Below, piece by piece: positions 32,701 to 64,000 of a DNA stretch of 64,000 nucleotides. The position numbers were made by a program, and so were the translations under genes. Source of the stretch: Dioscorea cayenensis subsp. rotundata (lineage: Eukaryota > Streptophyta > Magnoliopsida > Dioscoreales > Dioscoreaceae). The notes beneath the pieces were generated by a model. The model was not told the DNA's origin. It made no database searches and saw only the letters and a program-made list of their open reading frames with translations. How positions within the stretch are numbered: position 1 is the first letter of the stretch; each line of letters opens with the position of its first letter. The DNA lies in NCBI RefSeq assembly GCF_009730915.1, contig NC_052472.1, positions 18,382,382 to 18,446,381 on the forward strand. Reading direction: 5' to 3'.

Positions 32701-32872
32701 ATTGGTGCATGAATCCTTTGCGACAAAGGTGAAGCATCACTTCATCCGGGCTAAAAAATTTCAAATTATCACACTTCTTACATGGGCACCTTATTAACGA
32801 CCCATCCATTTGCTCGAGTTGTGAACTTGCATATTTAATGAATTCGATTACACCCTGCAATAAATTCATCAT
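29747..32872 (-). pseudogene. CACTA tnp2-type transposase (TNPD-like), broken
   Basis: Minus-strand pieces follow in order. The transposase-associated domain is at 32872-32465 (GSLIRCPCKKCDNLKFFSPD). The N-terminal part of tnp2 is at 32468-31863. At 31641-31261 is WTINDFPAYGMLSGWSTSG, with CPICM and FDCHRQFLP. At 31289-30735 is HNLNVMHIEKNVFDNIMDT. A DUF4218-like part is at 30607-30311 (YIVEEMSFFANHFF), and a final piece at 30007-29747 matches the DUF4216-type region. These are the signature parts of plant En/Spm transposases, which cut and rejoin CACTA ends. Stops and frame changes between 31863 and 31641 and elsewhere show the gene is no longer intact, although some gaps are ordinary introns. 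Confidence 0.85.
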
Positions 32873-33494
32873 TTAGGGAACCATAACCGGGCAAATTCTT
32901 GTTATACATCCATTTCCTTGATTCTCTTAAAGACATTGTTCCTGAAATCAAAAAAATATTTTTTTCAAATATAACTAAGTAGGGTAATATGCGAGCAGAA
33001 AAATTTTTGCGACACATTTTCTGTGAATTTTGTGACACAAAAAAGCGATCTTGTCGCAAAAATATTGCAAAAAACCGTCAGCAAACTTCAGCCCAGTTTT
33101 CCAACTCTTGTAAAATCGACAAATGATCCAAACTAAAACAGTAATACTATAATCATCACTAATTTGAAACAATAATATATAACATAAGTTGATTAATAGA
33201 ACATTCATAACTCAAATCATCACAAATTTACTATATACACTAAATGAAACCCTAAAAGCAAATTCAAAAGAGAAAGGGGAGGAGAGAGAAAGAGAAAGAG
33301 ATAGAGAGATAGAGAGACATACCAACTTAAATCACCAAGAATAAGGTTTTGGAGGCTCTAATACCTCAAGAAATCTAAAAACTTGTGAAGAAAATGAAGA
33401 AGAGTAAAGGTTAAGGGCTTGGAGGACTTCTCTTGCATTTTCCCATAAACCAAAACTTACCTTTTTGAATGGGAGAAATATTTTTTTTATTTTT

Positions 33495-33935
33495 AAAATT
33501 TGCGACGCATTTTGCGACAATAATTTATCGTTGCAACTGATGTGTCGCAAACCAATTTCATATGCGACAAATTTGGCGACACAGTTTGCGATGCCAAAAA
33601 ATCGTTGCAAATAATGTGTCGCAATTTATGTCGCAAACCAATTGCATGCTAAGTGTCAACATTTGCGATAACGTTTGCGACACCAATAGATCGTTGCAAA
33701 TAATGTGTTGCAACCGGTGTCGCAACCTGTGTCTTAAACCATTACATGGTAGGTACAAAACTTTTGCGACAAAATTGGCGACATTTTTGCATGGTCATTT
33801 TTTTGCGACGTAATTTGGTTGAATTTGCAACGTTTTATTTTTTTGTCACAAATGGTTGCAATTTGTGTCGCAAATCTGCGACACATTTATGTGTCGCAAA
33901 TATATGTGTCGCAAATACCATTTTTTCTTGTAGTG
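33495..33935 (-). repeat. CACTA right subterminal repeat array
   Basis: The same core as at the left end is repeated in both orientations ('tgcgacgcattttgcgac', 'gtgtcgcaaatatatgtg') up to the terminal repeat at 33918-33935. Copies nearest the terminus are the best preserved. Confidence 0.8.
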
Positions 33936-33938
33936 TTC

Positions 33939-34390
33939 AGCGATTAAGTCTGTACATAAATCATGAAATAAATTCAGATCTGTTGATTAATTTGAGTGAA
34001 AAGTGAAAACTCTCTTAGATCTCTAGATCTATTATGCAGTGTTATATATTTTATAAAGACGTGTTAAAGGGGTAAGCGTTCAAATTTATCCAAAGGTTGG
34101 CCAAGCATTCTCAAGCAAACTATTTTTGCATCCACAGAGATTATATGATTTGCCCAATCTTTATCATTTCCTATTTTATTTTGTCAATTTTTTCTTTTTT
34201 TTTTTAATATGCACCGTAAAAGTTGCTTTCTATCATTTTTTTTCAAATAAATAATTTGGATAATTTTGTTTAGTAAATAAAAAAAATAGATTTATCTGAA
34301 TTTATATTTCACAAAAATCAATAATCATAATTTTGCTAAGAATCAATTTATGGATCAAATATAGTTAACATAACTTTAAATTTTGTACAG
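33939..34390. other. AT-rich spacer right of the CACTA element
   Basis: No gene or clear repeat is visible in this stretch. Confidence 0.5.
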
Positions 34391-34760
34391 AATTTTTTTT
34401 TTTATATATAAAATCGTTAAACCACAAATGCATTAAAGAAAAACGACATAGTACAAATCAACAACACACAAGACAAAGCAAACAACAGTAAACAACAAGA
34501 ACAAAATAAAACCATTGCGGCGTCCATTAAAATGTAATACAGACAAAATAGAAACAACACCACGAATCGTGGCCTGAAGATAGAAGAAGACAAAAAAGTG
34601 AAAAAACCTAAGCCGAGGAAAGAGCGGGTGAAAACTGTTAGAAAAAGGCCTCTTACTTAGCAAAAGAGTAACAAAAGGTAGAAAGAACTAGTCGGTGGCA
34701 TGATCGTAGTTATCAACAGGGTTGCGCTTTTCGCTTTGGCCCTGAGAATAAGATATAACA
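34391..34760 (-). mobile_element. Probable LINE 3' tail fragment
   Basis: A T-run at 34391-34402 is followed by 'aaaccacaaatgcattaaag' and an A/C-rich stretch, the usual look of a plant L1 3' end in reverse. No LINE protein domain can be read, so only the tail seems to be present. Confidence 0.35.
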
Positions 34761-35065
34761 TCTAACTATAGTAACTGCAGCAGAAGGCTCCTCGAGTTTT
34801 TGCCTCTTCGTAATAGGAACTGGATCCATCAATAAAAGAAACATATGGTAAATTTTAAGAAGCACTGAAAGATAATGACAAAGAAACGGAATTGAAAATA
34901 CATTCATTTCTTCCCACTAAATTAACCAAATAATTGCCCACGGATTTTTAAGCCCTGCTTTGTTGATATTAAGTTCAAAAAGGTCAAACGTCAACCCTCT
35001 ACAAACCAAACCCAAACCCAACTCCAGCGTTCCAAGATTCCCCAAAACCCACCCGAACCAAACCC

Positions 35066-36429
35066 ATGCTTCTTCTCCGCTTCTCTCCTCGATCCATCCT
35101 CACACCTCGCCGGCGCCGTCTCCTCTCCTCCTCCGGCCACCGTCCCCCACCTCCCACCGAAGAAGACGAAGACGAAGACGAAGACGATCCCCACCCCTCC
35201 TCCCGTCGCCGTCAATCCCTCCTCTCCGATGCCGATCAAATCATCTCCATCCTCAAACAAGACGGTCTCGGCTTCGAAGCCCGCACCGCCCTCAACGATC
35301 TCCATCCAAATCTCACCGCCGCCCTCGTTCACCTCGTCCTCCGCCGCATCCACTCCTCCATGACCACCGCCAACAAATCCCGATCCGCCAAACTCGCCTT
35401 CAAATTCTTCGCTTGGGCTTCCGATCAACCCCACTACTCCCACCCCACCCACATCTACAATCTCACCATGAAGATCTTCTCCGACGCCGACGAGCTCAAG
35501 AACATGTTCAAACTCCTCAACGAGATGACCATCAGAGGCCTCCCCATCACCGCTCACACTCTCCAAATCATCATCTGCTCTTGCGGCCAAGCCGGCCTCG
35601 CCCGCAACGTCGTCGAGCGTTTCATCCGTTCCAATAACTTCAATTTCCGGCCTTTCAAGTCCTCCTTTCAACGCCATCCTCCATTCCCTTCTCACCATCG
35701 ATCAATTCCGTTTGATCGAATGGGTTCACCAGCAAATGCTCGCCGCCGACCACTCCCCGGACACTCTCACCTACAACATCCTCATGTTCGCCAAGCTAAA
35801 GCTCGGAAAACCCACCGAATTCTACAACCTCATTACCGAGATGGCTCACCGTGGCATCCCTCCCGACCTCCACACCTACAACCTCATCCTCCACGTCCTC
35901 GGCAAAGGCGACAATCCCGCAGGCGCAACCAAAGCTCCTGAACAACATGGAAGCAGACGGTTGCCGTCCCAGTGTCCTCCACTTCACCAACCTCATCGAC
36001 GGCCTCAGCCGCGCCGGAAATTTACGAGCTTGTGAGCACTTCTTCGACGAGATGAAGAAGAACCACTGCGAACCAGATGTAGTTTGCTACACAGTGATGA
36101 TCAATGGGTACCTCGTCGCCGGCGAGTTTGGGAAAGCACAGGAGTTGTTCGATGAAATGCTTGTGAGAGGGCATTTGCCGAATGTTTTCACTTATAATTC
36201 GATGATTCGTGGGCTTTGTGTTGCCGAGAAGTTTGATGAAGCTTGTGCGATGCTTAAAGAGATGGATGCGCGAGGATGCACTCCGAATTTCTCGGTTTAT
36301 AGTACTTTGGTTGGGAGATTGAGGCGTGCTGGCAGGGTTGCTCAGGCTCGTGCTGTCATTGGGTATATGGTTGATAAGGGACATTATTTGCACCTTGTTT
36401 CCAAGTTTAAGGGATACAGGAGATGCTAG
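35066..36429 (+). pseudogene. P-class PPR protein gene with two +1 frameshifts
   Basis: An intronless gene begins MLLLRFSPRSILTPRRRR, an Arg/Ser-rich N-terminus fitting an organelle transit peptide. It reads through an acidic run into PPR repeats (THIYNLTMKIF, TAHTLQIIICSCGQAG). At 35666-35668 (TTT) the frame moves +1 and continues (NAILHSLL, DTLTYNILMFAKLKLG, LHTYNLILHVLGKG). At 35931-35933 (AAA) it moves +1 again into LLNNMEADGCRPSVLHFTNL, DVVCYTVMINGYLVAGE, VFTYNSMIRGLCVAEKF and a final VYSTLVGRLRRAG..., ending at TAG 36427-36429. About eight PPR units are visible. PPR proteins bind organelle RNA. The repeats resemble the At1g55630/At3g60050-type P-class proteins, from memory. Without the two shifts it would be ~453 residues and complete, so this is a very young pseudogene or contains sequence errors. 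Confidence 0.8.
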
Positions 36430-36855
36430 CGTGCACGGGCCGAAAACTAATCACTCTAGCTCGTGCGTTTTCACCTGATGACATAGAGTTAGGGTTGTAG
36501 GACTGTAAACTTATACTCACAACTGAGTATTTTTTATTATCACTGTGTCTTATAGGATTTGAACTTGGAGTTTTTAAATCCTCACATATGTCGCAGTGGG
36601 GTTAATACTGTTATTCAGGCTCGAGCTGTCATTGGGTATATGGGTTGATCAGGGATATTATTTGCACCTTGTTTCTAAGTTTAAGGGATACACTAGATGT
36701 TAGCATGCAGAGCCTAAAAATTGATCGTCTAGTGACACAGTGTTCAGATTGTAGGATTGTAAACTTACATTTGAAAACTGAGAATTTTTTACTATCATAT
36801 TACTTGAATTCTGAGTTTTTAAATCAACACATTTCACGCTGGGATTAATACGGTT
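36330..36855 (+). repeat. Tandem duplication of the PPR gene 3' end
   Basis: The last ~90 coding bases plus the downstream flank (36340-36614) are repeated at about 36617-36855: 'gctgtcattgggtatatgg' and 'tttgcaccttgtttc' recur, followed by matching 3' flank ('gtaggattgtaaacttaca'). The second copy has a G insertion ('atgggttgatcaggg') and is not part of the gene. Confidence 0.85.
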
Positions 36856-37373
36856 GGATTATGAACAATTTCATAACATTATTAATTTTAACTTTATTAT
36901 CATTTATTTTGTTGAGAGTTGCTAAAAATATCTCATATTACATATTTTTCTCGTTGCCGAGATAGAAGCTTTTCATTGGTTTGTTAGTCTTGTGTAGGAC
37001 TGGGAACGGTTGAGCTGAATAGTTGATATGACCCTAAAAATAGGGTGAGGTCAAATGGGGAATAAGTTCCATTTTCAAGAAATAAACAGTTTGGATCACT
37101 AATTAAAGCTGTTAAATATTCTCTCAATGGTAAAAATGGTAGCGGAGTAGAAACAGTCAAGAGGTCTGCTTAGATGCAGTCACTCCTGAAAGAGTGCATT
37201 ATAGCTTGTGAGCGCAGAACTCTAGTTGTTTTACGAATGGTGGTGGTTCAAGGTGATTAAAGCCTAAAGAAAATTTTCAAAATAAAACTTCTATTTTATC
37301 TAAATTTGTTATGGAAATCCATATGAAATGTTTGTTAACATTTCTATAAGCTAATAGAGGCTCATCACTAGAC
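36856..37373. other. Intergenic spacer
   Basis: No gene or clear repeat is visible. Confidence 0.5.
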
Positions 37374-38262
<889 letters not shown>

Positions 38263-38273
38263 TATCATATTTT

Positions 38274-38956
38274 GGGCTTGTTTGGATTAGCTTGTAGAAA
38301 AAATGCTTTTGTTTTAATTTATAAAAGCACTTTTTTTACAAGTGCTTCCTTGAGTGCTTTTCAATATTTTTATGTTTGGATAGGTTAATAAAAAATTACT
38401 TTTGTATGTATGAAGTTGTTTGGATGTGAATTTTCTAAAAGGTTTTTAGAGGTGGTAAATTATTAAAATGGACATTCATTTTGTTTTCATTGATTTACTA
38501 TTATACATTCAATTAATGATGATGAAAACATTAGTGATAATAATAATAATAACTTAATGTGATATTATTATAATTATAATTATAATTATAACAATTATTA
38601 TTACTGTTATTATTATTATTGCAATTATTAATAATATTAATATTAATATTAATATTATTAAGTAAAATTAGATGCAGGATGAGAGATGGAGAAGAAAGTT
38701 AGGAGTGAGTGTATTAATTTATGAATTTGTTGAGTGTATAATGGTAATTAGACAACTCTTAAAATAGCTTCCCTAAAGTGCTTTTTTGGGAAGCACCACT
38801 TGAGTAGCTTCTCAAAAAAGCTGAAATTCAACATTTTTTTAACAGCTTTAGCTTTTGCCTAAAAGCAAATACAAACATGAATTTTAAAACCTAGAAATAC
38901 TTAACTTATAAAAAAACACTTCTGGACTTTAAAAAAGCCAATCCAAACATGGCCTT
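38274..38956. mobile_element. hAT-like MITE, second copy
   Basis: The left end 'gggcttgtttggattagctt' is matched by the inverted right end, 'agccaatccaaacatggcc'. The interior is AT-rich with TAA/TTA runs and non-coding. It lies 11 bp from the ARF1-carrying element and is similar at the ends. Confidence 0.6.
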
Positions 38957-39750
38957 TAACTCATAAATGAAGAACTCAAAAATAAAAAGTTTAAAAAAAA
39001 AAAAAATAAATTAAAAATTTTAATATTTATAATAAAAAATTAATATGAAATTATCCGTGATTATAAATCTTAAATTAACTATAGAAAGTAGACGGTGAGG
39101 TTTTAAAATTTTAACACTAGGTCTTCCAAAAATAGAAGGCTTAAAATCATTGCTTCGGTTGAGCCCGCCACGCCTAAAATTTAGTATGGATATATTTATT
39201 TATTTTTATTTTACGGCTACAAGCACTTCATATTTAAGAGATTGTTAAAGACAGACAGACAGCTACACATCAGTTATGGTGGTTTACAGATTTTTAGAAA
39301 AAGTTTTTTACTTTACAACACTTGAGGGGTGAAACCATTGTTTATCTCATAGAGGACCAACACCCAGACCCCCTTGAATAGTATTGATTTATTAGTATTG
39401 AGTCTAAATATACAGTGCATGAACAATATAAAACAGTACTGTTAGAAAAAAATTCAAACCCTTATCCTCCTCTTTGCACTCTTATGTCATACCATTGAGA
39501 CCTTAGTATGGATTTACACAATATACTTATTAGGATTTTTTTTTGTTGACAAGAAAATTACTTGTCATTACTTGCAAAGATAAGCAGCCGCTTAGAAAGG
39601 TAAAGGCATGCACAAATTTCGACGAAGCAAGTGGGGGCGAGACCCACGCATACATGGTGTTTGGACCACCCATACACAATCACACTTCAAAAAATGTGTC
39701 CTTACCCATGATTCGAATCATCACTACTTATGAAAAGTTCTAATAAAGAC
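38957..39750. other. Repeat-rich spacer before the serpin cluster
   Basis: About 39200-39500 is a diverged copy of the spacer sequence found at 47770-48000 and 61310-61550 ('ggtgaaaccattgttt', 'gtgaatagta', 'tttgaaccc'-like stretches). No gene is seen. A 66-codon ORF at 39543-39743 has no domain. Confidence 0.5.
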
Positions 39751-39754
39751 CCGA

Positions 39755-41456
39755 TTACCGATATATCGTTCGTCTGCTTGAAAAGGTACGTTTAAACGGT
39801 ACGTTTATGGCTTATTCATATTTTTTTTTATTATGAGAGTGGCATTTGATTTACCCATCAAAGTCAAAAATTAAGGATTAAGTTTATGGCTTGTTGATAT
39901 TTATTTAAAATAAATTTAATATTTTTATTAACATAATTAAAAAAATTTTCAATTATTATTAATTGTGTTTAATGGGTTATATATATATGACAAAAGGGAT
40001 AAACTCAAGTGACGAGTTAATGCGGTGCCACCTTTATAGTGGGCCATTAAACTCCATATGGAGTTCAAATTCATAGTGATGAGTTAATGTGGTGCGAACT
40101 TTTATAGTGGGCCATTAAGCTCCACATGGGGTTTAAATTTTTACAAAATTGATTTTTTTTATTTTTATGTAGGATTCGAACTCATGCCATCTTTTATTTC
40201 TCCTAAAAAGCTTGAAATTAATATAGCTAACAACTTTAACCAAGTAGTTTTGGCATAAAATTATTTTAATTAATATCCACTCAAACATATAAAAACCAAA
40301 TTTCTAAATAGCAAGCATGAAATTTATTATTATAAAGTGAACATAGCAATGGCCAAGATTGTGAAGGGAGCTCAAACTTTCATTTGGGAAGAGAAATAGC
40401 TACCATCTTTTTAACTTGAAAATGCTAGGAAAATTTTAAATTTTTTGTTACAGAAAAAACTTATTATTATTATTTATGGTTAAATTATATGTTTTCCACT
40501 AATATATATTTGTGAAAATCATATATATCTTCATATATTTAATTTTTTTTATGTACAAATGTTTTTTTAAAAAATTGAGAATGCATGAAATTTCTAGGTT
40601 TTAAAGGGTATATATCAGCATGGGTTGATGTATTGATTTTGTGAATTTGCTTTAACTTCAAATAAAAAGGCTCTTGAAGTGGCAAAGGAGGTGAATGGTT
40701 GGGTGGAGAAAGAGACTAATGGTTTGATCAAAGATCTCCTTCCTTATGGCTCAGTGAACAGCATGACAAAGATTAATCATAGCCAATGCACTCTACTTCA
40801 AAGGACTATGGGAACACAAGTTTGATATTTCTAAAACAAGAGAAAAAGAATTCCATCTTCTTGATAGCACCATCATCAAAGCACCATTCATGACCAGCAA
40901 AGAAGACCAGTTCATCACCTCCTTTGATGGCTTCCAAGTTCTCCGTCTTCCTTATCGAAAACACCAAAATACGAAGAGCTTTTCGATGTATATATACCTC
41001 CCTGATGATCTTTTTGGCCTTCATCGCTTTCTGGAAAAAATAGCTAATGAACCAGGCTTTGTAAGCAACCACATTCCTCTCAGGAGAGTAGAAGTTGGCC
41101 GGTTCATGATACCAAAGTTTAAGTTCTCATATGGTTTTGAGGTGTCTAAAGTTTTGAAGAGTTTGGGATTGGAACTTCCCTTCAGTGAAAATGCTGACTT
41201 TTCTGGCATGATTTTGAGTTCATCTTCTGCTGACAAGTTGTTCATATCCAGTGTGCATCACAAGGCTACAATTGAAGTGGAAGAGGAAGGAACTGTGGCT
41301 GTTGCTGCAACTGGTTTGGTTTTTACACAAAGGTGTTATGTTCCTCCTGTGAACTTTGTTGCAGATCATCCTTTCATGTTTGTCATTAGAGAGGATGTTA
41401 CTGGGGCACTGCTCTTCTTTGGGGTTGTTGTTAATCCTTTACTTTCCGCTGATTAG
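39755..41456 (+). pseudogene. Serpin pseudogene psi-1 (exon 1 lost, exon 2 frameshifted)
   Basis: Only ~45 bp of exon 1 remains (39760-39805, 'cgtctgcttgaaaaggtacg' against 'cgcctgcttggaacggtacg' of the intact gene). It joins directly to intron sequence. Exon 2 (40670-41456) is 787 bp, one base longer than the intact 786-bp exon, because of an extra base at 'gacaaagatta' near 40765. After that shift the serpin reads cleanly to the natural stop (DKLFISSVHHKATIEVEEEG, then VADHPFMFVI). The hinge is GTVAVAAT and the predicted P4-P1 is FTQR (41323-41334), giving P1 Arg. Elsewhere it is nearly identical to the gene at 58687. It cannot make a serpin. Confidence 0.9.
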
Positions 41457-41987
41457 ATTAAAACAAAAATTAAGGAAATAAATAGTTTATGTTTGAGTTT
41501 GATGAGGAGACTTACACTCAATATTCTCCTATGTTGTTATGAATTAGTAAATTATATGTAGCAACAAGTTTATGTAGTCACTTGTACTTGTTTTTTTTTT
41601 TGGTAGAAGAGCTGAAAGCTACAAAACAGAGAAAAAACAACACAAAAAAATTTAGAAGAAGAGGTTGTGACTGGCACAAAGCCCATCAAGCCAACTGGCA
41701 CAAAGCTCATCAAGCCAGAATGGTCGGTTAAGTCCTTTGAAAAAGAGGGATAAGGCAGGATTGAGAAGCCCAAAGGCGGCCAATTCATCGGCGATAGACT
41801 TCGTTTCCCTTGGAATCGTGGAGAAGGAGATGTCAGGGAAATCCTTCATTAGTTGATTCAGTTTATTGAGCAGGTTACTTGCGCGCCAGGATATGTAGGG
41901 GTGAAAATTTCGCTTAGTTGCTCGACCCCTGGGCAATCACAGCAAATGATGGTAGGTTTCCAGTTGAAATCTTTACAATGTTGAAGG

Positions 41988-42300
41988 TGTTGTGGAAAAA
42001 CAAATAGAAATATGCAAAAAAAATAAAATGAAAATGCATAAGAACACAGGAATTTAACGTGGTTCGGCTTTCAATCAAGCCTACATCCACGGAGCAGCAA
42101 GAAAACCCTCTTAATTCTCAATGACGAGCAATACACACATACTAAGGGGGAAAAACAAAGAAAGTTTCATATAACCCCCTAAGTTATTCCAAAATTGGCC
42201 AATGGGTTCACAAATAAGTAAAATGACAAATCAACCCATATAAAATAGTATAGGGTTGAAAATGCAAAACGAGTCATCCAACTTAAGCCCCAAATCAACA
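41988..42300 (-). repeat. Copia 3' LTR (313 bp)
   Basis: This is the longer LTR copy. It holds 35 bp ('tattccaaaattggcc' onward) that the other LTR lacks. The missing block is bordered by short 'taag' repeats. Confidence 0.95.
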
Positions 42301-42845
42301 ATCTCCACCTTGGCGAGATTTGCAAGCCACATCACAAACCATCTCATCATTGACATCCACCTTAGTATGAAATCTCACACCAATCTCACAAGTTCCTTGC
42401 TGCATCTCCAACAATTCAAACAATCACAATGTTGACCAAGTTCAAGCAATGATTGAACTTGGCACCACTAATGACCTTAGTCATCATATCGCGAGGATTA
42501 TCCCTTGTATGAATTTTTTCGAAGCAAAAATAACCCCACCATTCACAATATCACGAACAAAATGAAAAGCGAATATCTATATGTTTAGTCCGAGCATGGT
42601 GAACTCGGTTCTTTGCTAAGTGAATAGCACTCTGGCTATCACTAAATACCTCCACCTGTTTTTGGTTAAACCCCAAGTCTGCAATCAGTCCATGTATCCA
42701 AATGGCCTCCTTCAAAGCTTCGTTGTTGCCATATACTCGCTTACGTAGTAGATAATGCTACGATGAGACGCAATGTAGACTTCAACCGATAGGCCCACTA
42801 GCCAAAGTAAACAAATACCTCGTAGTAGACCTCCTATTGTCCGGA

Positions 42846-45747
42846 TCACCGAGAAAAATCTGAATCCACATAGCCAATGAGAAATCTGTCATCATTCTCA
42901 TGATTTCTCTCAAATTTTAGACCAACCTCCATAGTGCCTTTAATGTACCTCACTACCCACTTTGCAGCTTCCCAGTGTTTTTTTCCTGGATCATGCATAT
43001 ATCTACACACCATACTAACAGCCTGGGAAATATCAAGTCTTGTACATACCATAGCATACATAAGACATCCAATTAAACTAGCATAAGGTACCTTCTTCAT
43101 ATAATCTCTTTCGACATCAGATTTTGGGGATTGATCAGCACTAAATTTAAAATGAGGAGCAAGAGGGGTACTAACTGGTTTAGTGTGTTCATCCATGCCA
43201 AACCGCTGTACTATATTCTTCAAGTATTGGTTTTGACTCAGATGCACTGTGCCCTTTACTTTGTCTCTACTAATCTCCATGCCCAATATCTTCTTAATTC
43301 CTTCATTTCAAATTCTGAGTTCAACTGGTTCTTCAACTTATCAACCTTAGCAATATTTCTTGCAGCAATTAACATGTCATCCACATATAACAATAAGTAA
43401 ATGAAAGTCCCATCCAACAACTTCTTAAAGTAAACACAAGGATCATAAAGACTTCTTGTGAATTTCTAAACTTTCATAAATTGATCAAACCTCTTGTACC
43501 ATTGCCTTGGAGACTGTTTCAAACCATATAATGACCTGTTCAACCTGCAAACCAAGTCTTCCTTGCCAACTGCCTTGAAACCTTCTGGTTGTGACATGTA
43601 AATCTCCTCTTCTAAGTCCCCATGCAGAAATGCAGTCTTCACATCAAATTGTACCAAATTCAAGTCAAATTGAGCAACCAAAGCCAAAAGAATCCGAATA
43701 GATGAATGCTTTACTACTGGAGAAAAAACCTCATTGTAGTCAAGTCCTTCTCTCTGTGTATAACCTTTGGCCACCAATCTTGCCTTGAACCTCACACTAT
43801 CTTTTCCCTGAGTACCTTCCTTTTTTGCGTACACCCATTTGCAACCAATCTCTTTTCTTCCCTTTGGTAGCTTCACAAGCTCCCAAGTGTTATTCTTCTG
43901 AAGAGATTGCATTTCTTCATCCATAGCCTTATTCCAATCTATTTTTTTCTCGAACTTCTAATGGCTTCTTTATAGGTGGTTGGAATGTCATCTTCTAAAA
44001 CAGCAACGCATAAGCAACCATGTCGACCAAAATCGGGGTGGCTTTCTCGATTTCTCTCCTTGTCCTAGTTGCGACTATGCTATTATCATCGTCGTTGTTT
44101 AGGTTCATGCTGAGAACCTCCATCAATATTATCTGTAAAATCATTTGTAGGTGTACGGCTTGCATCCATCTGGGAACTAGATGCATTATGCTCAAACTCC
44201 ACCTGTTGCACATTCCTGCTTTGCACAATTTTCTTACTAGGTTGTATTTCACTTTTGAGAAATCTGCCTCCATCAAATGTAACATCTCTGCTTAATATCA
44301 ACTTCTTCAACTCTGGGCATCATAACCTGTATCCTTTGACACCACTGCAAAGACCCAAAAATACACCTTTTTTTGCTCTCGGATCAAGTTTACTTTCTGT
44401 GACATGAAAGTAAGCAGTACAACCAAAAATATGCAAAGAATCATAATCAGTAGCAGGTTTTCCGGTCCACACCTCATAAGATGTTTTACCTTCAAGTGCA
44501 GCTGATGGTAATCTATTGATGAGGTGGCATGCATATGCAACTGCCTCTGCCCAAAACATCTTGCCCAAAGCAGCGTTGGACAACATACACCTCACCTTTT
44601 CCAACAAGGTCCTGTTCATCCTCTCTGCTACCCCATTTTGTTGTGGATTTCCCCTCACTGTGAAATGCCTCATAATACCTTCATCTTCACAAAATTTCTG
44701 GAAAGAATTAGACTTGTACTCACCTCCGTTGTCAGACCTCAAGCACTTTATTTTAATTCCAGTCTGATTCTCAACCATTTTCTTCCAAACCAAAAAAAAT
44801 GTTGAAAACCTCATCTTTAGTCTTCATTGTGTAGACCCAAACTCTTCTGAAAAAGTCATCTACAAATGTAACAAACCAAAACTTTCCTCCTAAAGATGCA
44901 ACCTCGTGTTGGCCCCCAAACATCTCAGTATGCACATAATCAAGAATTCCTTCGATCGATGTACTCGAGGTTCCAAATTTCACCTTGGTCTGCTTTTTCC
45001 CAATACACAATGCTCACAAAAAAATCAATCTTGCATGTCTTTGCACCCTTTAACAAGCCTTGCTTGACCAGACTCCCTTTGTAGTGCCTTCTCACCAAAG
45101 CATGTCCAAGCCTCATATGCCACAACCTAGAAGCATCGAAAACACCTTCACTCGCTTGGCAACAATCGTAGCAGACTCCACCTACAATTGTTTTTTTCCT
45201 TGTAGAAAAATACAAATTCTTCCTGTCTGGCTCCTCTCATCACAACCATAGCACCCTTGGACACTTTCAGCTCACATGCCTCCATTGTGACTTTGAAACC
45301 TCTAGATTCCGAAGCACCCAAAGATATCAAATTTTTCTTCAGATCTGGTACATACCAAACATTTGTCAACTCTCTGATAGTTCCATTATGAAGTTTCAAA
45401 CAGATTGAGCCTACTCCTTTCTTTTCACATGCATAATCATTTCCCATGAGGACTGTCCCATTATCAGATAACTCCAAACTGGTAAAATGATCCTTATTCG
45501 AACACATATGGTATGAGCAACCAGAATCCATGATCCAACTATTTGAAATACTATCAGAAGTGGATACCAAAGCAAACTTAGAGTCATCATCCCCCTGGGC
45601 CACATTAGCATTCTCAGTTTTCTTCTCTTTTCCCTTCTCCTTTTGCTTCAATTTTGGACAGTCTTTCTTCCAATGGCCTTTATTATGGCAGAATGAACAC
45701 TCATCTTTTGCTGGAATTTTTCTACCATCTGCTGAAGTTCCTCTCAA
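42846..45747 (-). pseudogene. Copia pol: zinc knuckle, protease, integrase, RT, RNase H
   Basis: In order on the minus strand: knuckle CSFCHNKGHWKKDC and protease core WIMDSGCSYHMC (45747-45148), pre-integrase LWHMRLGH (45215-44940), integrase SDNGGEY and PQQNGVAERMNRT (44814-44320), RT ERKVRWVYAKKEG-like start with VKTAFLHGDLEEEIYM (43924-43466), and RNase H region (43286-42846). It is broken by several frameshifts, most at homopolymers: 45191-45197, 45018-45024, 44792-44799 and 42854-42858. There is also an amber codon at 43468-43466 and a small deletion near 43300. As read it is not functional. Confidence 0.85.
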
Positions 45748-45825
45748 AGCTCCTCTAGACTTGGACCAAAACTTGTTCTTCTTATCTGATTGTCATTGCT
45801 CTGTTCGTCCCCTTACTGCTAATGC

Positions 45826-46434
45826 TTATGAATTCTCAAACTGGGCCTGCTTATCTCTCCTACGAAACTCATTATTCATCAAAGCATCAGAAACATCTTT
45901 AAATGTTATTGAATCTTTACCATAAATTAGTGTGGTGGCAAAATGATCAAACGAATCAGGTAATGAACTCAATAACAATAAGGCTTTATCTTCATCTTCA
46001 GCTTCTTCATCCAGATTTAACAAATCAGCAATCAATTTATTGAAAGAGTGAATATGCTCCATCATTGGCGTACCTTCTTTGTATGAAAAACAGAAAACTT
46101 GCCTTTTCAAATACAAACGATTTTGAATGCTCTTTATCATGTATTTATCTTCCAGTGTCTGCCACAAATCCTTCGCCATAGTCTCTTTCATCACGAAATA
46201 CTTCACCTCCTTTGCAAGACAGAGACGAATGGTGCCACACGCCAATCTATTCATCTTCACCCACTCATTCTGTTCCATATCATCCGGTTTATCTTCTAGG
46301 GTTACATCTAACCCTTGTTGCACAAGAACATCCAACACTTCACACTGCCACATCCCAAAATTCGTGTTCCCATCGAATTTTTTAATTTCAAATTTTAGCA
46401 TTTGAAACAGCCATCCGTGCCGTGGGAGATCCAA
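45826..46434 (-). CDS. Copia gag (UBN2-type)
   Basis: This open frame of 202 codons includes KFDGNTNFGMWQCEVLDVLV, then DLWQTLEDKYMIKSIQNRLY and LLLLSSLPDSFDHF, the usual gag core of plant Copia elements that packages the RNA. It stops at 45826 and the zinc-knuckle part follows in a piece starting at 45747. The split suggests one stop or frameshift between gag core and knuckle. Confidence 0.8.
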   Translation of the reverse strand: MDLPRHGWLFQMLKFEIKKFDGNTNFGMWQCEVLDVLVQQGLDVTLEDKPDDMEQNEWVKMNRLACGTIRLCLAKEVKYFVMKETMAKDLWQTLEDKYMIKSIQNRLYLKRQVFCFSYKEGTPMMEHIHSFNKLIADLLNLDEEAEDEDKALLLLSSLPDSFDHFATTLIYGKDSITFKDVSDALMNNEFRRRDKQAQFENS

Positions 46435-46486
46435 TTGCTACCTGTGTTCCAGATCCAGATCCGGGCATTCTCTCACAGGATCGAAT

Positions 46487-46499
46487 CTCTCTGATACCA
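46487..46499 (-). other. Copia primer-binding site
   Basis: TGGTATCAGAGAG on the minus strand, three bases after the 5' LTR, is complementary to the 3' end of initiator methionine tRNA, the usual primer of plant Copia elements. Confidence 0.85.
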
Positions 46500-46502
46500 C
46501 TT

Positions 46503-46779
46503 TGTTGTGGAAAAACAAATAGAAATATACAAAAAAATAAAATGAAAATGCATAAGAACACAGGAATTTAACGTGGTTCGGCTTTCAATCAAGCCTACAT
46601 CCATGGAGCAGCAAGAAAACCCTCTTAATTCTCAATGACGAGCAATACACACATACTAAGGGGGAAAAACAAAGAAAGTTTCATATAACCCCCTAAGTAA
46701 AATGACAAATCAACCCATATAAAATAGTATAGGGTTGAAAATGCAAAACGAGTCATCCAACTTAAGCCCCAAATCAACA
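46503..46779 (-). repeat. Copia 5' LTR (277 bp)
   Basis: This LTR adjoins the primer-binding site, so it is the 5' LTR on the minus strand. Besides the 35-bp deletion it differs from its partner by only a few bases. Confidence 0.95.
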
Positions 46780-47466
46780 GAAGGGCCAGGCAAATAGCAT
46801 CAATCTCATCATCTAAGGGTGAAGAGTGAAATGTGCCAGAGGCACCTGCAAGTAAAACCAGGCCCGGGTTAGCAACAATGATAAAACCAAGACCAGCACA
46901 CTTAGAGACTGAGCTCCAAGAGGCATCAGCATAGATAAATATGGGTTTAGGAGAAAGAGTAGGACCAGAAAACTCCCTGATATTGTTGTCCCTGAAAAAA
47001 TTGTTACAGTGGTTGGAAGCCCTGGCGGGAATAGAAACCAGATTAAGATTGTTATTTTGAAAAATATGATTGCATCTCTCTTTCCATATGAGCCAAGCCA
47101 TCGAGGCAATCAAGGCTTTAACCTGATCAGACCCCCATCTATTCCCGCCAAAATACTCCAGCCAACGGCCGGAACACAAGAAATTTAAATCCAAAGGGTC
47201 TCTGTTCATCCTGATGAGAATTGGGGTCCAACAATGCTGAACTTTTGAATACCACCAAATGAGATAGGAAGCAGAGTCATCATATGATCCACAGAAAGGA
47301 CAACTAACAAAAGGTCCAATGTTAAGATTGTAAAGATAGGCACCCGTCGTTAGTTTATCATGAGCAAGTTTGCAAATAAAAGTTTTAATACGGGGGACAA
47401 CAGATAATTTCCAAATAAGATCCCACCCCTTCCAATTATCAGTATCAGCACAAGATGAGTTGATAT

Positions 47467-49000
47467 GCGGAAATTCGCATATGAACATATATTATTAGTC
47501 AACCCTCCTCCTTAATACCAACAGAAGTTAATTCAAACAGTAGAAACTTGAATTTAAGCTGTTTTGAATCCACTTCTTTGTATATACACAAAATATATAC
47601 TGAGAAATATCTTCTTCCCATTAAAAACTAATTTAAAACTTATAATAGCTTTTAGAATAGTAGTTCAAGGAATACCACTTTAGATATGATTTACCACAAT
47701 CTTAATACTAAACCTTATATTAATTAATTAATTAATTACTAATAGGTGACAAAGGATTGTTAAGGGACAAATATATACGGAAGTACGCCAGTTACGATGG
47801 CTTACAGACATTCTAAAAAATCCCTCTGCCCTGGAACCATAGAGGAGTGAAACCATTGTTTCTCCTACAGGCGACCCAAACCAATGCCTGTGAATAGTAC
47901 AAAAATAATACTTGACTCAAGTGTAAAATGCATGAACAGTACATAAACAATACTGCTGGGAGAAGGATTTGAACCCATGCCCTCCTCTCGCACTTTTGGG
48001 GTCATTTGGTTCACAATAATGATATATTACTATGGTAATGAGATTACCATGATAATGAAATCGGGAATGTTATAAGCCTAGCTATGAATGTTGTGGTAAT
48101 GTAGAATTACTATGTTTGGTTGAGAACTTATATTACTGGTAATCTTTTGGTACGATGTTTGGGTAGTCATGGTAATTATCTCAGTAATATGTCAAATTTT
48201 CCTAAATACCCTACTTTTGAAAATTTTAATTTAAAGTATTTAAATAAATACACAAATAAATTTTAATATCAAAAATTATTTTGCATATTTTTTAAATACA
48301 TATGTATTTAAAATTTTGAGTAATAATGCTCTAAATTTCTTAAAATATCCAGTAGCTAAAATTTTGACAAAAAATTAAATTTATAGTAAATTTAAGTTTT
48401 AGATAAAAATAATTAAATTATAATACCAAAAATTAATTTTTGAAACATTTTTCCAAAATACCTTATATCTAAAATCTTAAGCAAATTTAAAGTTAAAATC
48501 AAATAAAAATTTCACGTGAAAAATAATTATTTATAATACAATATATTATTTTTTTTATATTCCTAAAATACTCTTGTATTTTTAAAATTTTTGAAGAAAG
48601 ATTGAAAAGAACTAAATTGAAAAGGTTATGGCAAATTTTTTTAAAAAAATTATGTTGGATTACCACCAATTTTGTAATATTAATTGACACCTATTTTGAT
48701 GGTAATATTATTACCGACCTATTTGTTAATATTTCACTGTTGGTAATTTCATATTACCATTAACATTACCACTGCTATGGTAACCAACAATATTAATATA
48801 TTCAGATTACTGTTGGATTTCTCGTAATTTCACATTACTACAAACTAAACGATTTCTTTGTGTCATACTATTGGACTATTCAAAGGCATTGACTATTAAT
48901 TAATTTTAAATGAGTACCATTACAAAAGAAGTATTTCCCAAACTTAAGCCCTAAGGAATCCATACTTTATTTGTATGACTTAAAAAAGAGAAGACTTCCA
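47467..49000 (+). repeat. Serpin spacer, copy of 61010-62100
   Basis: The stretch from 'atgcggaaattc' to 'gagaagacttccatg' repeats the sequence between the intact serpin and the next one. Shared stretches include 'ccaacagaagttaattcaaa' and 'tatttgtatgacttaaaaaa'. This is the spacer that followed psi-1 before the LINE and Copia insertions. It is evidence that psi-1 and its spacer arose by segmental duplication of a serpin unit. Confidence 0.85.
47998..48870. mobile_element. TIR element of ~870 bp in the serpin spacer
   Basis: The left end 'ggtcatttggttcacaataa' has an inverted, diverged partner near 48840-48870 ('acaaactaaacgatttc'). Runs of 'ggtaat' and 'attacc' recur in both arms. No coding is present. 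A copy with a ~480-bp internal deletion lies at the equivalent place, 61551-61945, so the element was present before the duplication. Confidence 0.5.
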
Positions 49001-52203: not shown

Positions 52204-52671
52204 AAGTGAACATAGCGATGACCAAGATTGTGAAGGGAGCTCAAACTTTCATTTGGGAAGAGAAATAGCTACCATCTTTTTAACTTGAAAATGCTAAGAA
52301 TTTTTTTTTTTTTTTACAAAAAAAACTTATTATTATTTATGGTTAAATTATATGTTTTCCACTTATATATATTTGTGAAAATCATATGTATCTTCATATA
52401 TATATAATTTTTATACATACAAATCTTTTTTAAAAAAAATTGAGAATGCATGAAATTTCTAGGTGGTAAAGGGTATCAGCATGGGTTGATGTATTGATTT
52501 TGTGAATTTGCTTTAACTTTAAATAAAAAGACTCTTGAAGTGGCAAAGGAGGTTAATGGTTGGGTGGAGAAAGAGACTAATGGTTTGATCAAATATCTCC
52601 TTCCTGACGGCTCTGTGGACAGCATGACAAGATTAATCATAGCCAATGCACTCTACTTCAAAGGACTATAG
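51885..52671 (+). pseudogene. Serpin pseudogene psi-2 (intron and start of exon 2 only)
   Basis: 51885-52530 is serpin intron 1 (matching 59300-60055), including a (TTA)n run at 52143-52201. Exon 2 begins at 52531 ([20 protein letters not shown], then [15 protein letters not shown]) and stops at TAG 52669-52671, where the intact gene has the Trp codon TGG. After that the serpin sequence breaks off into MITE-like sequence ('agagggaccaaaaggg'). Exon 1 was removed by the LINE on its left. Only 46 codons of exon 2 survive. Confidence 0.9.
52143..52201. repeat. (TTA)n microsatellite in the psi-2 intron
   Basis: About 20 TTA units lie where the corresponding introns of psi-1 and the intact serpin have only short T/A tracts. 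This shows local expansion after duplication. Confidence 0.9.
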
Positions 52672-52986
52672 GAGCATTTCCGAGTAGAGGGACCAAAAGG
52701 GAAAAGAGAAAAAAGTAGAGGGACCAATTAGGGTATTATACCATTCTCCAACACACTCTTTTAATTCAAAGTTGCAAAATTTCATAGAACTTCAAACTTG
52801 AAACATTACGGAGCACTTCTCTCCATACCTCTAATATTGGTGAAGTACTTCTCTTCACTATCGATGCACTTTTCACCAACCTGCAATTATTAGAACATAT
52901 ATTTTCAAAAAACCTCTTGGTGCATTTCTCACAAATTAATTTTTAAAAAAAATTATTTCTTCTTCATCCACTTATACTAAATTTGC
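52672..52986. other. Junction between psi-2 and the tandem repeat
   Basis: The first ~70 bp ('gtagagggaccaattagggt') resemble one arm of the foldback MITE at 57935-58206. The rest is unrecognised AT-rich DNA. Confidence 0.5.
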
Positions 52987-53201
52987 ACATTCTTTTGCAA
53001 TTTTTTTTTATAGATGCTCGAATTTTTTTTTTTTTTTGCATTTGAAACATTGAGGTTTCTCCTTTTTGGCCAACATTCCTTCTCTTCACCACGGTCGGGA
53101 GTCGACATATTGCTACTGACCATCTTGATCATCCACATTCCTCTAAAAATCCATAAAGCTCGAAAATCATGTGGCAATTTTTAGGAAAAGAAGAAATATA
53201 A

Positions 53202-53203
<2 letters not shown>

Positions 53204-53263
<60 letters not shown>
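53204..53263. repeat. (AAT)n microsatellite, unit 1
   Basis: About 19-20 AAT units. The counterpart in unit 2 (55730-55763) has about 11. Confidence 0.9.
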
Positions 53264-55520: not shown

Positions 55521-55727
55521 ACATTCTTTTGCAATTTTTTTTTTATAGATGCTCAAATTTTTTTTTGCATTTGAAACATTGAGGTTTCTCCGTTTGGCCA
55601 ACATTCCTTCTCTTCACCCTGGTCAGAGCTGACATATTGCTACTGACCATCTTGATCATCCACATTCCTCTAAAATCCATAAAGCTCGGAAATCATGTGG
55701 CAATTTTTAGGAAAAGAAGAAATATAA

Positions 55728-55764
<37 letters not shown>

Positions 55765-58686: not shown

Positions 58687-60841
58687 ATGTTTTTCATCAA
58701 AGAGAGCAAAGATTCATGCCTCAGTTTGGCGGAACGGGTCGGATCCGAGGCCATCACTAACGGATCCAACTTCGTCTTCTCACCGCTGTCGATCCGAGTG
58801 GCGCTTAGCTTGGCAGCCGTTGGATCGAAAGCAGCGACGTCGGATCGGATGCTTTCTTTCCTCGGATCCGGATCCGTTGAGGAGCTCAACGCCGTTTCCG
58901 TTCGCCTGCTTGGAACGGTACGGTTAAACGGGACGGATGAACCCGGTTCGATCTCGTTTGTGAACGGGATTTGGGTGGACCGATCGGTTGATATGAACCC
59001 GGTTTTTGAGGTGCTCGCCCGATCGGTCTATGGAGCTGCTGCCGAGTCAGTAGATTTTCAGACCAAGGTCAGTTTCGGAATTTCATTTTGTTTTTTTATC
59101 AATATTATTATCATGTTTTTTTTTATTATGAGAGTGGTATGTAATTTTCTTTTCATATAAAAGATTAAGGATTAAGTCCGTGGCTTGTCAATAGTTTTTA
59201 AAAAAATAAATCTAATATGTTTATTATCATAATTAAATTTGTCAATTATTATCAATAGTTTATATGACAAAGGGGTTGACAAAGGGGAAAAACCCCTGAG
59301 TTAGTCAAGTGACATGCACTGAGTTAATGCTTTGCGTACCCTTACATTAGGTTATTGGGGTTCACATGTGGTCCAAATTTCTGTGATGTTAATTATTTTT
59401 ATGTAGGACTGGAACTCTCTCAATTTTTTCTTTTCCCCGAGAAGGGCCAAGAGTCAATATGACTTTGGCATAAAAACTATTTTAATTAATATCCACTATA
59501 AAACATATAAAAAAAATTCTAAGAGCAAGGTGAGATTTTATTTTTTTTATTATTTTTTTTATTACATAGGATTACCAAGATTGTGAAGGGAGTTAATCCC
59601 TCAAGCTCTCGTTTGGTACAAAAAAAAAAGAATTACTTTTTATTTTTTTTAAAAGGGAGATAAAAGTCTATGTCTATGACGCATGAGTGTCACTTATAAA
59701 TTAATTCATCCCTTATTAATTACCATCTTTTTAACTTAGAAATGCTAGAAAAAAAAAAAATCTTGTTTACAAATATAGCTTCAACCGATGGCTTTGATAG
59801 ATTTGATTAACCAAACAAACTTCTTTCACAGAACTCCACAAATAATATTCTATGGCTTTGATTTGTATAAATAATATTTTCAATTTTATGTTTTTCACTT
59901 ATATTTCTGAAATTCATATGTATCTTCATATATATATACATACAAAATTTTTAGGAAAAAATAGAGATTACATGAAATTTCTAGGTTTTAAAGGGTATAT
60001 ATCAGCATGGGTTGATGTATTAATTTGAGAATTTGTTTTAATTTCAAATAAAAAGTCTATTGAAGTAGCAAAGGGGGTGAATGGTTGGGTGGAGAAAGAG
60101 ACTAATGGTTTGATCAAGAATCTCCTTCCTGATGACTCAGTGGACAGTATGACAAGGTTAATCATAACCAATGCACTCTACTTCAAAGGACTATGGAAAC
60201 ATAGGTTTGATATTTCTAAAACAAGAGAAAAAGAATTCCATCTTCTTGATAGCACCATCATCAAAGCACCATTCATGACCAGCAAAGAAGACCAGTTCAT
60301 CACCTCCTTTGATGGCTTCCAAGTTCTTCGTCTTCCTTATCAAAAACACGAAGATACAAAGAGCTTTTCGATGTATATATATCTCCCTGATGATCTTTTC
60401 GGCCTTCATCGACTTCTGGAAAAAGTAGCTAATGAACCAGGCTTTGTAAGCAACCACATTCCTCTCAGGAGAGTAGAAGTTGGCAGGTTCATGATACCAA
60501 AGTTTAAGTTCTCATATGGTTTTGAGGTGTCTAAAGTTTTGAAGAGTTTGGGATTGGAACTTCCCTTCAGTGAAAATGCTGACTTTTCTGGCATGATTTT
60601 GAGTTCATCTTCTGCTGACAAGTTGTTTATATCCAGTGTGTATCACAAGGCTACAATTGAAGTGGAAGAGGAAGGAACTGTGGCTGCTGCTGCAACTGGT
60701 TTGGTTGCTAAACTAATGTGTTATGTTCCTCCTGTGAACTTTGTTGCAGATCATCCTTTCATGTTTGTCATTAGAGAGGATGTTACTGGGGCACTGCTCT
60801 TCTTTGGGGTTGTTGTTAATCCTTTACTTTCTGCTGATTAG
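58687..60841 (+). CDS. Serpin (plant clade, Z-type), intact, two exons
   Basis: Exon 1 is 58687-59067 and exon 2 is 60056-60841, with a phase-0 GT-AG intron after VDFQTK, the usual plant serpin position; total 388 residues, normal for the family. Exon 1 has NGSNFVFSPLSIRVALSLAA and SFVNGIWVD. Exon 2 has [56 protein letters not shown] and VADHPFMFVIREDVTGALLF. The hinge EEGTVAAAAT is small-residue rich, as inhibitory serpins require, though P13 is Val where Glu is usual. Counting from the hinge, P4-P1 is AKLM (60717-60728) with Cys at P1', so cleavage after Met (or Leu at P2) is predicted. Serpins trap proteases irreversibly; plant ones often act on papain-like or chymotrypsin-like enzymes. 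There is no signal peptide, so it should be cytosolic. Confidence 0.93.
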
Positions 60842-62207
60842 ATTAAAACAAAAATTAAGGAAATAAATAGTTTATGTTTGAGTTTGATGAGGAGACTTAC
60901 ACTCAATATTCTCCTATGTTGTTATGAATCAGTAAATTATATGTAGCAACAAGTATATGTAGTCACTTGTACTTGTTGAAAGCCTTATAATATGCATTAT
61001 GTTTATGAAATGCGGAAATTCTCATATGAACATTATTAGTCAAACCCTCCTCCTTAATACCAACAGAAGTTAGTTCAAACAGTAGAAACTTGAATTTAAG
61101 CTGTTTTGAATCCACTTCTTTGTATATACACAAAATATATACTGAGAAATATCTTCTTCCCATTAAAAACTAATTTAAAACTTATAATAGCTTTTAGAAT
61201 AGTAGTTCAAGGAATACCACTTTACATATGATTTACCACAATCTTAATACTAAACCTTATATTAATTAATTAATTAATTTAATTAATTAGGCGACAATGT
61301 ATTGTCAAGGGACAGTCATGTACGGAAGTGTGCTAGTTACGATGGCTTCTAGACATCCTAAAAAAAATCCCTCTGCCCTGCAATCCTAGAGAGGTGAAAC
61401 CATTGTTTCTCCTACATGCAACCCAAACCACTGTCTGTGAATAGTAGTACAAAAACAATACTTGACCCAAGTGTCTAGTGCGTGAATAGTACATGAACAG
61501 TACTACTGGGAGAAGGATTTGAACCCTTGCCCTCCTCTCACATTTTTGGGTCATTTGGTTCGCAGTAATGATATATTACCACTGTAATGAGATTACCATA
61601 ATAATGAGATCAGAAATGTTATATGCCTAGGAATTTTTTAGTAATGTAGGATTACTATGTTTGGTTGAGAACTTATATTACTAGTAATCTTTTAGTACCA
61701 TATGTGGTTAGTTATAGTAATTACTTTTGTAATATGTCAAATTTTCCCAAATATCCCTATTTTTAAAAATTCTAATTTAAAGTAATTAAATAAATACACA
61801 AATAAATCTTAATATCAAAAATTATTTTTTACATATTTTTTTAAATACCTATGTATTTAAAATTTTGAGTAATAATGCTCTAAATTCCTGTAATATTTTC
61901 ATATTACTACAAACTAAACAATCTCTTTGTATCATACCAATGGACTATCCAATGTTATTGATTATTAATTAATTTTAAATGAGTACTGTTCCAAAAGAAG
62001 TATTTCCCAAACTTGAGCCCCAAGGAAGCCATACTAAACTTAAGCCCTAAGGAATTCATACTTTATTTGTATGATTTAAAAAAGAGAAGACTTCCATGTT
62101 GACTTTGTCATAGCAAACTTTTCACTACAAATATGCACATGTATACGCATTACTCGCCTCACTCATTGCTCATTTGCTCATAGAAACACAAGACTAAAAA
62201 GAAGGAT
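60842..62207. other. Spacer between the two serpins
   Basis: It contains the 3' untranslated region of the first serpin, the repeated spacer also seen at 47467-49000, and a shortened TIR element at 61551-61945. The last ~100 bp before 62208 ('cactacaaatatgcacatg') are the promoter-proximal region of the next serpin. No gene is seen. Confidence 0.65.
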
Positions 62208-64000
62208 ATGGCTGACCAATGCATGCTTGTTGGGGAGAAGGAGGGAATGAAAGCAGCTACAAATGAATCAAACTTCATATATTCACCCATGTCCATTAGG
62301 GCAGCCCTTAGTCTAGCCGCACTTGGAGCCAAGCGAGAGACCCTAAATCAGATGCTATCTTTCTTGGGATATGATACTATTGCTAATCTTAAAGCAGCCT
62401 CTGCTCGTCTTGTCCACGTCATCAAGACTTCTGACAGTGATCATGACAGTGGGCCCGAGCTTTCCTTTGTCAATGGGATTTGGTTTGATCAGTCAAAGTT
62501 TTTGATGCCAGAGTTTCTTCAAGTCGCAGCGTCCGTTTATAAAGCATTCACGGAATGTGTTGACTTTAACCAGGTTTGCATTTTATTTATTTACTTATTT
62601 TTTTAAAAAAAAATTATTTATTTTATTATAAATATATTATATTTTAATAATAATAACAAGTTGTTACTTCCAGATATTTGAGATTTGTTATATATATATA
62701 TATATAGAGGATCGATCCTCTATGCACGTTCACAGATTTTTTAATCTGTAAACGTTGCTTTGGACCGTTGGATTTTGATCCAACGATCAGACACTATTTA
62801 ATGAACAGTATTACTGTGCTTATGAACAGTAACACAGTAAAAAAGTAGGATGCACAATAAAAACAAAATTAAAACTAATAAACTCACTAATTTAGGATTA
62901 GCTCTCACTGTAGCCACAGGTTAGTATTACTGTAGCTCTCTGTGGACGTCTATGCACGTCCACAGAGAACCTTTTCTCATATATATATATATATATATAT
63001 ATATGAATTCTTCTCTTCTATATTGGTCCAAAGCAAGAGTTACTAAGCTAGATAAATCAAATCCAGGTATATTATTTCATAAAAGGTTTGCTAAATATTT
63101 TTTCAATTTTAATTTATTCTTTTAATACATTCCAGGTATATTATTTCATAAAATTTTTGCTAAATATTTTTTCAATTTTAATTTATTCTTTTAATACATT
63201 TTATTTGAAAAAATTTTATTTTAATTTTGTTATTAGAAAATCTCCCAATAGTTTTAAAGACATATCTATAATATTTTAATTGATTTTTTCTTAATTTATC
63301 ATGGTGTGATTTTCAGACTAGTGCAGGTAAATTTATTCTTTAATTGTTTTTATTTAATAATATTTAATATTATTTCAAAAATTTTATTAGCCATGCCTAT
63401 CTTCTTAACATGTCGAGAGATTTTCTACAATTACATAAAATTTCAAAAACTCCCCCCATCATTTTACCGGACCTGTCTATTAAAAACTTCTGGTGTATAA
63501 GTAAATTGTTTTTGAAAATTTAATGATATTGTTACTATTTATTTATATTCTTTACATAAACTTTATTTTTTATGTAATTTATATAATGGTTGGCAAATGA
63601 CACAGCCTAACAAGGTAACAAAAGAGGTGAATGACTGGGTGGAGAAAGAGACCAATGGCAAAATCAAAGATCTCATACCAATCAACTCTATGAGTCCTTT
63701 AGACCAAGTCATCCTCTGCAATGCACTCCATTTCAAGGGAGCATGGCAGCACAAGTTTAATAAATCCCAAACAAGAGACAAAACCTTCCACCTTCTCAAT
63801 GGCAACACCATCCAAACTCCCTTCATGACCAGCAAACAAGACCAGTTCATAACTTCCTTCTCTGGCTTCTCGGTCCTCCGATTACCTTTCCGACAAACCA
63901 GAGACTTCTCAAGGAGTTTTTCCATGAATATAATCCTCCCAAATGACACAACTGGCTTCATTCCTCTCATGCAAAGAATTTCCAATGAACCCAACTTCAT
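62208..64000 (+). CDS. Serpin, second gene, cut by the window edge
   Basis: Exon 1 (62208-62573) encodes 122 residues, MADQCMLVGEKEGMKAATNE, then SNFIYSPMSIRAALSLAALG and SFVNGIWFDQSKF, ending VDFNQ at a GT donor. Exon 2 begins after 'gacacag' at 63606 ([20 protein letters not shown], then VILCNALHFKGAW and TPFMTSKQDQFITSF) and is open to the last base. The intron position and phase match the first serpin. The reactive loop lies beyond the window, so specificity cannot be read. No defect is visible. It is clearly more diverged from the 58687 gene than psi-1 is. Confidence 0.9.
62690..63004. mobile_element. Possible (TA)n-inserted MITE in the serpin intron
   Basis: A ~280-bp segment between two TA runs starts 'gaggatcgatcctctatgca' and ends with 'tctatgcacgtccacagaga'. 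The two sides carry related 'ctatgcacgt(t/c)cacaga' blocks. Short palindromes ('ccgttggattttgatccaac') are inside. Insertion into TA microsatellites is known for some plant MITEs. The arms do not form one clean inverted repeat, so the call is tentative. Confidence 0.4.

Follow-up and report, generated by a model that had tools for sequence, protein, structure and literature searches.

The reactive site of serpins is described as hypervariable in the murine Spi-2 (SERPINA3) and alpha-1-proteinase inhibitor families (Hill & Hastie 1987; Inglis & Hill 1991; Barbour 2002; cited in PMC3966226, PMC2373789, and PMC12646145). A protease reads the serpin loop near P1, cleaves it there, and is trapped, and the residues from P6 to P3' are reported to affect specificity (PMC3534287, PMC9917288). 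Among vertebrate SERPINA1- and SERPINA3-like genes, sites under positive selection are reported to be enriched in this loop (PMC12646145). Ohta is credited with the view that gene conversion with subsequent selection at reactive centers can be recognized by an elevation of silent change alongside that of replacement change (PMC3966226).

Related observations come from plants. In wheat, Zx serpins are described with the reactive center LRS and the neighboring Zy serpins with LMS or LES (PMC9917288). For Brachypodium and barley serpins, pair-wide Ka/Ks values are given as mostly below 1 (PMC7692276). A pair-wide ratio can hide a signal of this kind, because the loop accounts for only about 14 of some 260 exon 2 codons. 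Within one open-access library, no paper on plant serpins was found by the words hypervariable reactive center and gene conversion.

The locus described here is a plant case of this known serpin phenomenon and is not new in principle. Two clusters in one plant genome contain serpin genes with a fast-evolving loop, and in one of them the loop differences lie within a tract of low divergence. The reading best suited to these observations, with a probability of roughly 70%, is that conversion keeps the scaffolds alike and selection drives the reactive centers apart.

Serpin loci of the window and their P4–P1 residues

The window is the whole stretch of 64,000 nucleotides analyzed here (contig C2, 18382382-18446381, of a 584-Mb genome), and all comparisons are made within this one genome. 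Its serpins are of plant type and comprise an intact gene, the pseudogene psi-1, the stub psi-2, and gene 4, which runs past the window edge (see the table). The intact serpin has two exons separated by an intron with GT/AG ends and encodes 388 amino acids in total, with the hinge and the reactive loop encoded by exon 2. With both exons taken together, its best solved relative is 3le2 (Serpin-ZX; E 9.8e-116), which we take to be AtSerpin1. Against the Pfam PF00079 cut-off of 27 bits, exon 2 scores 246 bits, the open part of psi-1 203.5 bits, and exon 1 66.6 bits. Relative to the intact gene, psi-1 has a frameshift near 40.77 kb, beyond which the frame stays open from 40767 until the stop codon, and nothing of its exon 1 was detected beyond the 37-base remnant at 39767-39803. 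The loop of gene 4, read from the 10 kb following the window, is AATAVVFQMQQCSIRPVN. Between psi-2 and the intact gene lies a near-tandem duplication (52987-57931), in which 53223-55143 pairs with 55721-57668 (95.9%) and 55145-55515 with 57561-57931 (98.7%).

Features of the serpin loci in the window (positions are those of the window)
Feature	Position	Strand	Description
psi-1 exon 1 remnant	39767..39803	+	37 bases, 86%
psi-1	40670..41456	+	exon-2-like; Pfam Serpin E 7.6e-60 for 40770-41453
psi-1 P4-P1 codons	41322..41333	+	TTT ACA CAA AGG (F T Q R)
Low-divergence tract, psi-1 side, left part	40820..41592	+	
Insertion splitting the tract in psi-1	41593..47460	-	LINE-like with nested copia-like; types by eye from translations
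Low-divergence tract, psi-1 side, right part	47461..47735	+	beyond transposons; right edge approximate
psi-2	52531..52677	+	exon 2 stub; in-frame stop; ends before loop
Intact serpin exon 1	58687..59067	+	127 aa; GT donor next; Pfam Serpin E 3.1e-18
Intact serpin exon 2	60056..60841	+	261 aa plus stop; AG acceptor upstream; Pfam Serpin E 9.4e-73
Low-divergence tract, intact side	60205..61279	+	about 1.07 kb, 2.0% without loop
Intact serpin P4-P1 codons	60707..60718	+	GCT AAA CTA ATG (A K L M)
Gene 4 exon 1	62208..62573	+	ends set by eye at ATG and GT
Gene 4 exon 2, start only in window	63606..64000	+	continues to position 64391

P1 was assigned by counting from the hinge (Glu at P17, Gly at P15) and by alignment to 3le2. 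Inhibitory plant serpins are described as having Glu at P17 and a loop of 17, rarely 16, residues to P1 (PMC9917288). Both the intact serpin (EEGTVAAAATGLVAKLM) and psi-1 (EEGTVAVAATGLVFTQR) count 17 from Glu to P1, and by this loop count the intact serpin appears to fit the inhibitory type. Neither is an LR serpin of the AtSerpin1/Zx type, which has Leu-Arg-small at P2-P1': the intact serpin reads Leu-Met-Cys and psi-1 Gln-Arg-Cys.

The sequence-only reading had compared the last 188 codons of psi-1 and the intact serpin and counted 11 differing residues, four of them consecutive at P4-P1 (FTQR against AKLM) and seven among the other 184, and the counts were reproduced. At P4-P1, 5 of the 12 bases differ, four at second codon positions, one at a first, and none at a third, and each changes the amino acid; a single difference (60832) lies in the 123 bases that run from the loop to the end of the stop codon, again as had been described. 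The positions first assigned to these codons were off by 1 base in psi-1 (41323-41334 in place of 41322-41333) and by 10 in the intact serpin (60717-60728 in place of 60707-60718). Outside the loop, the two copies show 20 differences in the 214 codons compared, divided equally between replacement and silent (10 each), which suggests constraint in the past.

How exceptional the cluster appears depends on what is taken in advance. With P4-P1 taken in advance, the hypergeometric P for 5 of 12 rises from 1.4e-6 (551-base 3' part) through 2.2e-5 (last 188 codons) to 8.3e-5 (exon 2). When any 12-base window is allowed, the scan P becomes 0.00027 in the 545-base 3' part, 0.0048 in the last 188 codons, 0.023 in exon 2, and 0.078 across all 1092 aligned bases. 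Replacement sites from P6 to P3' differ more than replacement sites of the body (Fisher P = 9.8e-5) and, weakly, more than its silent sites (P = 0.028); the corresponding comparison of P4-P1 with body silent sites gives P 0.0012, with P4-P1 chosen after the fact.

Gene 4 has Phe at P4 and a CAA codon in common with psi-1. AtSerpin1 (3le2), with IKLR at P4-P1 by hinge count, has Lys-Leu at P3-P2 as in the intact serpin and Arg at P1 as in psi-1. Loop variability of this order prevents a firm polarization of the five changes.

The low-divergence tract around the loop

The description of the two copies as otherwise almost identical holds locally, inside the tract, and does not reflect the normal distance between these paralogues, whose flanks are 11-13% apart. 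Without the loop, 17 of 760 bases differ in 60205-60976 and 4 of 273 in 61006-61279; a segmentation that includes the loop counts 22 of 773 in 60205-60977. The left flank (59879-60204) differs at 36 of 326 bases (11.0%) and the right flank (61283-61889) at 77 of 598 (12.9%). The left change point at 60205, an edge that could lie up to 60327, was reached in none of 500 permutations. At the right edge, 4/273 gives way to 77/598 (Fisher P 2e-9), and the 3' UTR, with 2/135, is set apart both from the downstream DNA (81/871, P 6.5e-4) and from its far part (77/598, P 1.9e-5). The longest run identical between psi-1 and the intact serpin is 142 bases (P 0.014).

Inter-locus gene conversion is recognized by a low-divergence tract with edges inside more divergent paralogous DNA, and divergence here runs from 11.0% through 2.0% to 12.9%. 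The tract was probably homogenized after the paralogues were 11-13% apart, with inter-locus gene conversion as the simple cause. A homogenized tract between such flanks means that much of the loop contrast is due to events around the loop. Given the paralogue background, the loop excess of the window pair is modest, with P about 0.005-0.03, not 1e-6.

In psi-1, the tract is split by an insertion standing where the intact copy has about 28 bases (60978-61005); its LINE-like element has a T run on the + strand and an RNase-H-type frame at 46625-47491. Because the insertion splits the tract, it is probably the later event, and gene conversion is probably older than the inserted transposon. A conversion tract ending at the LINE insertion was considered and ruled out, as low divergence persists for 273 bases past it.

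The tract is patchy. Inside it and outside the loop, 60328-60425 differs from 40943-41040 at 10 of 98 bases (scan P 0.0004) and carries 10 of the 17 non-loop differences in 60205-60976, which looks as if conversion had spared it. This unconverted-looking patch outside the loop is a counterpoint to the favored reading. The similarity of psi-2 stops (52677) at position 60202 of the intact serpin, adjoining the left edge of the tract, either by coincidence or through a common breakpoint.

Loop divergence in a second cluster

A genome search with PF00079 found at least 12 places (13 candidates, all scored), six on contig C2 and six on contig C24. Contig C24 contains three further serpin genes (a, b, and c), each with both exons; positions on it are local, and 426000 is added for the contig position. 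The bodies of a/b, a/c, and b/c are identical at 215, 211, and 213 of 231 residues (91-93%), and all nine hinge residues are common to each pair. Their loops agree at 4/13, 2/13, and 3/15 residues, and loop length differs by two codons between a and either b or c. In the same order, dN is 0.55, 1.11, and 0.81 in the loop and 0.040, 0.046, and 0.036 elsewhere.

From P6 to P3', replacement change exceeds that at body silent sites in all three pairs (P 0.00018, 6.9e-9, and 8.5e-8 for a/b, a/c, and b/c), and it exceeds that at body replacement sites in all four close pairs (P 9.8e-5 to 1.8e-13). Loop replacement above silent change, the sign of positive selection at a hypervariable site, is strong in the three C24 pairs and weak in the window pair. 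The expectation that a wider alignment would show loop sites changing faster than the body was borne out in the window pair and all three C24 pairs. Among more distant comparisons, intact/C24a has a significant loop excess (P 1.6e-4), and those of gene 4 have none (P 0.13 with the intact serpin and 0.49 with psi-1). The second cluster makes the case more convincing than the window pair alone. The idea of diversifying selection on the loop gains from faster loop sites in both clusters, and it loses from the near-identity of the flanks in the window, which belongs to a homogenized tract.

Unguided segmentation isolated 20834-20864 in a/c (20/31 bases differ, 65%), starting at the P8 codon (20834), and 25630-25646 in b/c (14/17, 82%), starting in P7, with the P8 codon beginning at 25626. 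In a/b the loop was not isolated, and a stretch of 0/272 is followed by a block of 46/269 (17%) that holds it; in the psi-1/intact pair by itself, segmentation did not set the 12-base loop apart.

None of the six loops found (psi-1, intact, gene 4, and C24a-c) has the canonical Leu-Arg-small center, of which at least one example is said to be present in all plant species examined (PMC9917288). A Leu-Arg-Tyr center in C24a requires a 16-residue loop. C24a may be the diverged LR orthologue, or the assembly or the search may lack an LR gene. Exons 1 and 2 of C24c are about 10 kb apart (local 28366-39535), and its first in-frame ATG is seemingly downstream of the C24a/b position, so that C24c may or may not work.

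Explanations and comparison with described families

If scaffold conversion and loop selection act together, duplication would have come first and produced a tandem set of plant serpin genes whose reactive center is hypervariable. Ectopic gene conversion would then have copied the scaffold between neighbors, leaving in the window pair the near-identical tract of ~1.07 kb. The residues read by the protease, from about P8 to P3', would escape or outrun this copying, and the loop would diversify under selection for different protease targets. In the window pair, the outcome would be P1 Met (AKLM) against P1 Arg (FTQR), with psi-1 left as a pseudogene only. Judging from the P1 residues, Met and Arg should direct inhibition at different protease classes. 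What is observed are the sequence differences, the tract, and a fast loop in both clusters; that conversion made the tract, that selection for protease specificity sped up the loop, and that events followed this order is inferred.

A tentative further reading treats the bait loop as a module that evolves on its own and is sharply bounded at ~P8. Scaffolds would be overwritten again and again by their neighbors, loops would persist or be exchanged in short pieces, and the ages of loop and scaffold would be uncoupled. Around the C24 loops, silent sites seem older than in the bodies: silent changes there are raised in two pairs (6/21 against 13/203, P 0.004; 6/20 against 12/197, P 0.003), and the third pair has 3/20 against 11/201 (P 0.12). 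If true, this module would be a plant counterpart of rodent Spi-2, with pathogen or herbivore proteases as a possible driving force.

Import of a short loop segment from another serpin, by a micro-conversion ending at the loop, is unlikely. It would suit five changes within 11 bases between near-identical flanks, as well as C24 loops that are very divergent, differ in length by two codons, and, in two of the three pairs, show a surplus of silent change. However, the import raised in the sequence-only reading found no donor among the best candidates of a genome search with the psi-1 tract or in 144 kb of both clusters. The four places among those best candidates are psi-1 itself, the intact serpin (98%), gene 4 (72%), and C24c (70%), and the loops of gene 4 and C24a-c differ. 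For two 18-base loop stretches, the other matches, at five places in 84 kb of C2 (including 1000 N) and 60 kb of C24, all have 4 mismatches. A donor should also tend to differ at third codon positions, and all four are the same (chance 0.07). Around the loop of the window pair, silent change shows no excess (0/26 against 10/182), and stepwise loop replacement is therefore at least as good an account there as loop exchange.

It is improbable that the loop is a relic formed without selection, in which conversion covered the flanks and passed over the loop, and neutral paralogue divergence persisted in a psi-1 that was already dead. Flanking paralogous DNA 11-13% apart and the second unconverted-looking patch, at 10%, agree with such a relic. 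Nonetheless, at least 5 differences in 12 bases exceed a background of 10.5-12.9% (P = 0.005-0.013), and all five loop changes are replacements. In addition, the C24 loop blocks, at 65% and 82%, lie far above the noncoding 3' flank of a/c at 19% (P 5e-8 and 4e-8).

Clustered substitutions are a usual sign of template switching, and the changes here are clustered, but a single multi-base mutation of this kind, using a nearby inverted copy, has very little probability. No reverse-complement match longer than 11 bases in the window covers two or more changed sites, and none of those listed covers all five. AtSerpin1 resembles the intact serpin at P3-P2 and psi-1 at P1, a hint that both lineages have changed. 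An assembly or sequencing error in one copy is hardly credible, as the frame and conserved flanks are intact, the changes fall at first and second codon positions only, and three genes on another contig (C24) show similar loop divergence.

Scaffold homogenization and loop diversification are separable here in one plant genome, in two independent clusters. For near-identical plant serpins, the same protease target cannot be assumed. If the pattern is confirmed across accessions, loop-by-loop arms-race tests for plant serpins would become possible.

Several described families allow comparison, as far as the cited accounts of them go. As in the Ohta model, the scaffold here appears homogenized, loop replacement is raised, and silent change is raised in two of three C24 pairs; in contrast to that model, the loop of the window pair has no silent excess (0/26). 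Like the wheat Zy serpins, which are near relatives of an LR serpin with P1 Arg changed to Met or Glu, the window copies differ at P1, but here all four residues of P4-P1 differ and Leu-Arg is in neither copy. Rice serpins are likewise reported as recent tandem duplicates with a hypervariable loop and varied P1, although the two closest rice pairs (86-87% neighbors) are described with similar reactive centers, whereas the closest pairs here differ (PMC3534287). Bovine SERPINA3 also forms a tandem cluster of very similar serpins, but as a counter-example: six members are reported to conserve the loop at >82% identity, and a hypervariable loop is thus not universal in tandem serpin families (PMC2373789). 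The murine Spi-2 and alpha-1-proteinase inhibitor families share with this locus tandem serpins whose loops are far more different than their scaffolds; here, in contrast, the genes are those of a plant, the loop lies in the second of two exons, one copy is a pseudogene, and the copies are fewer.
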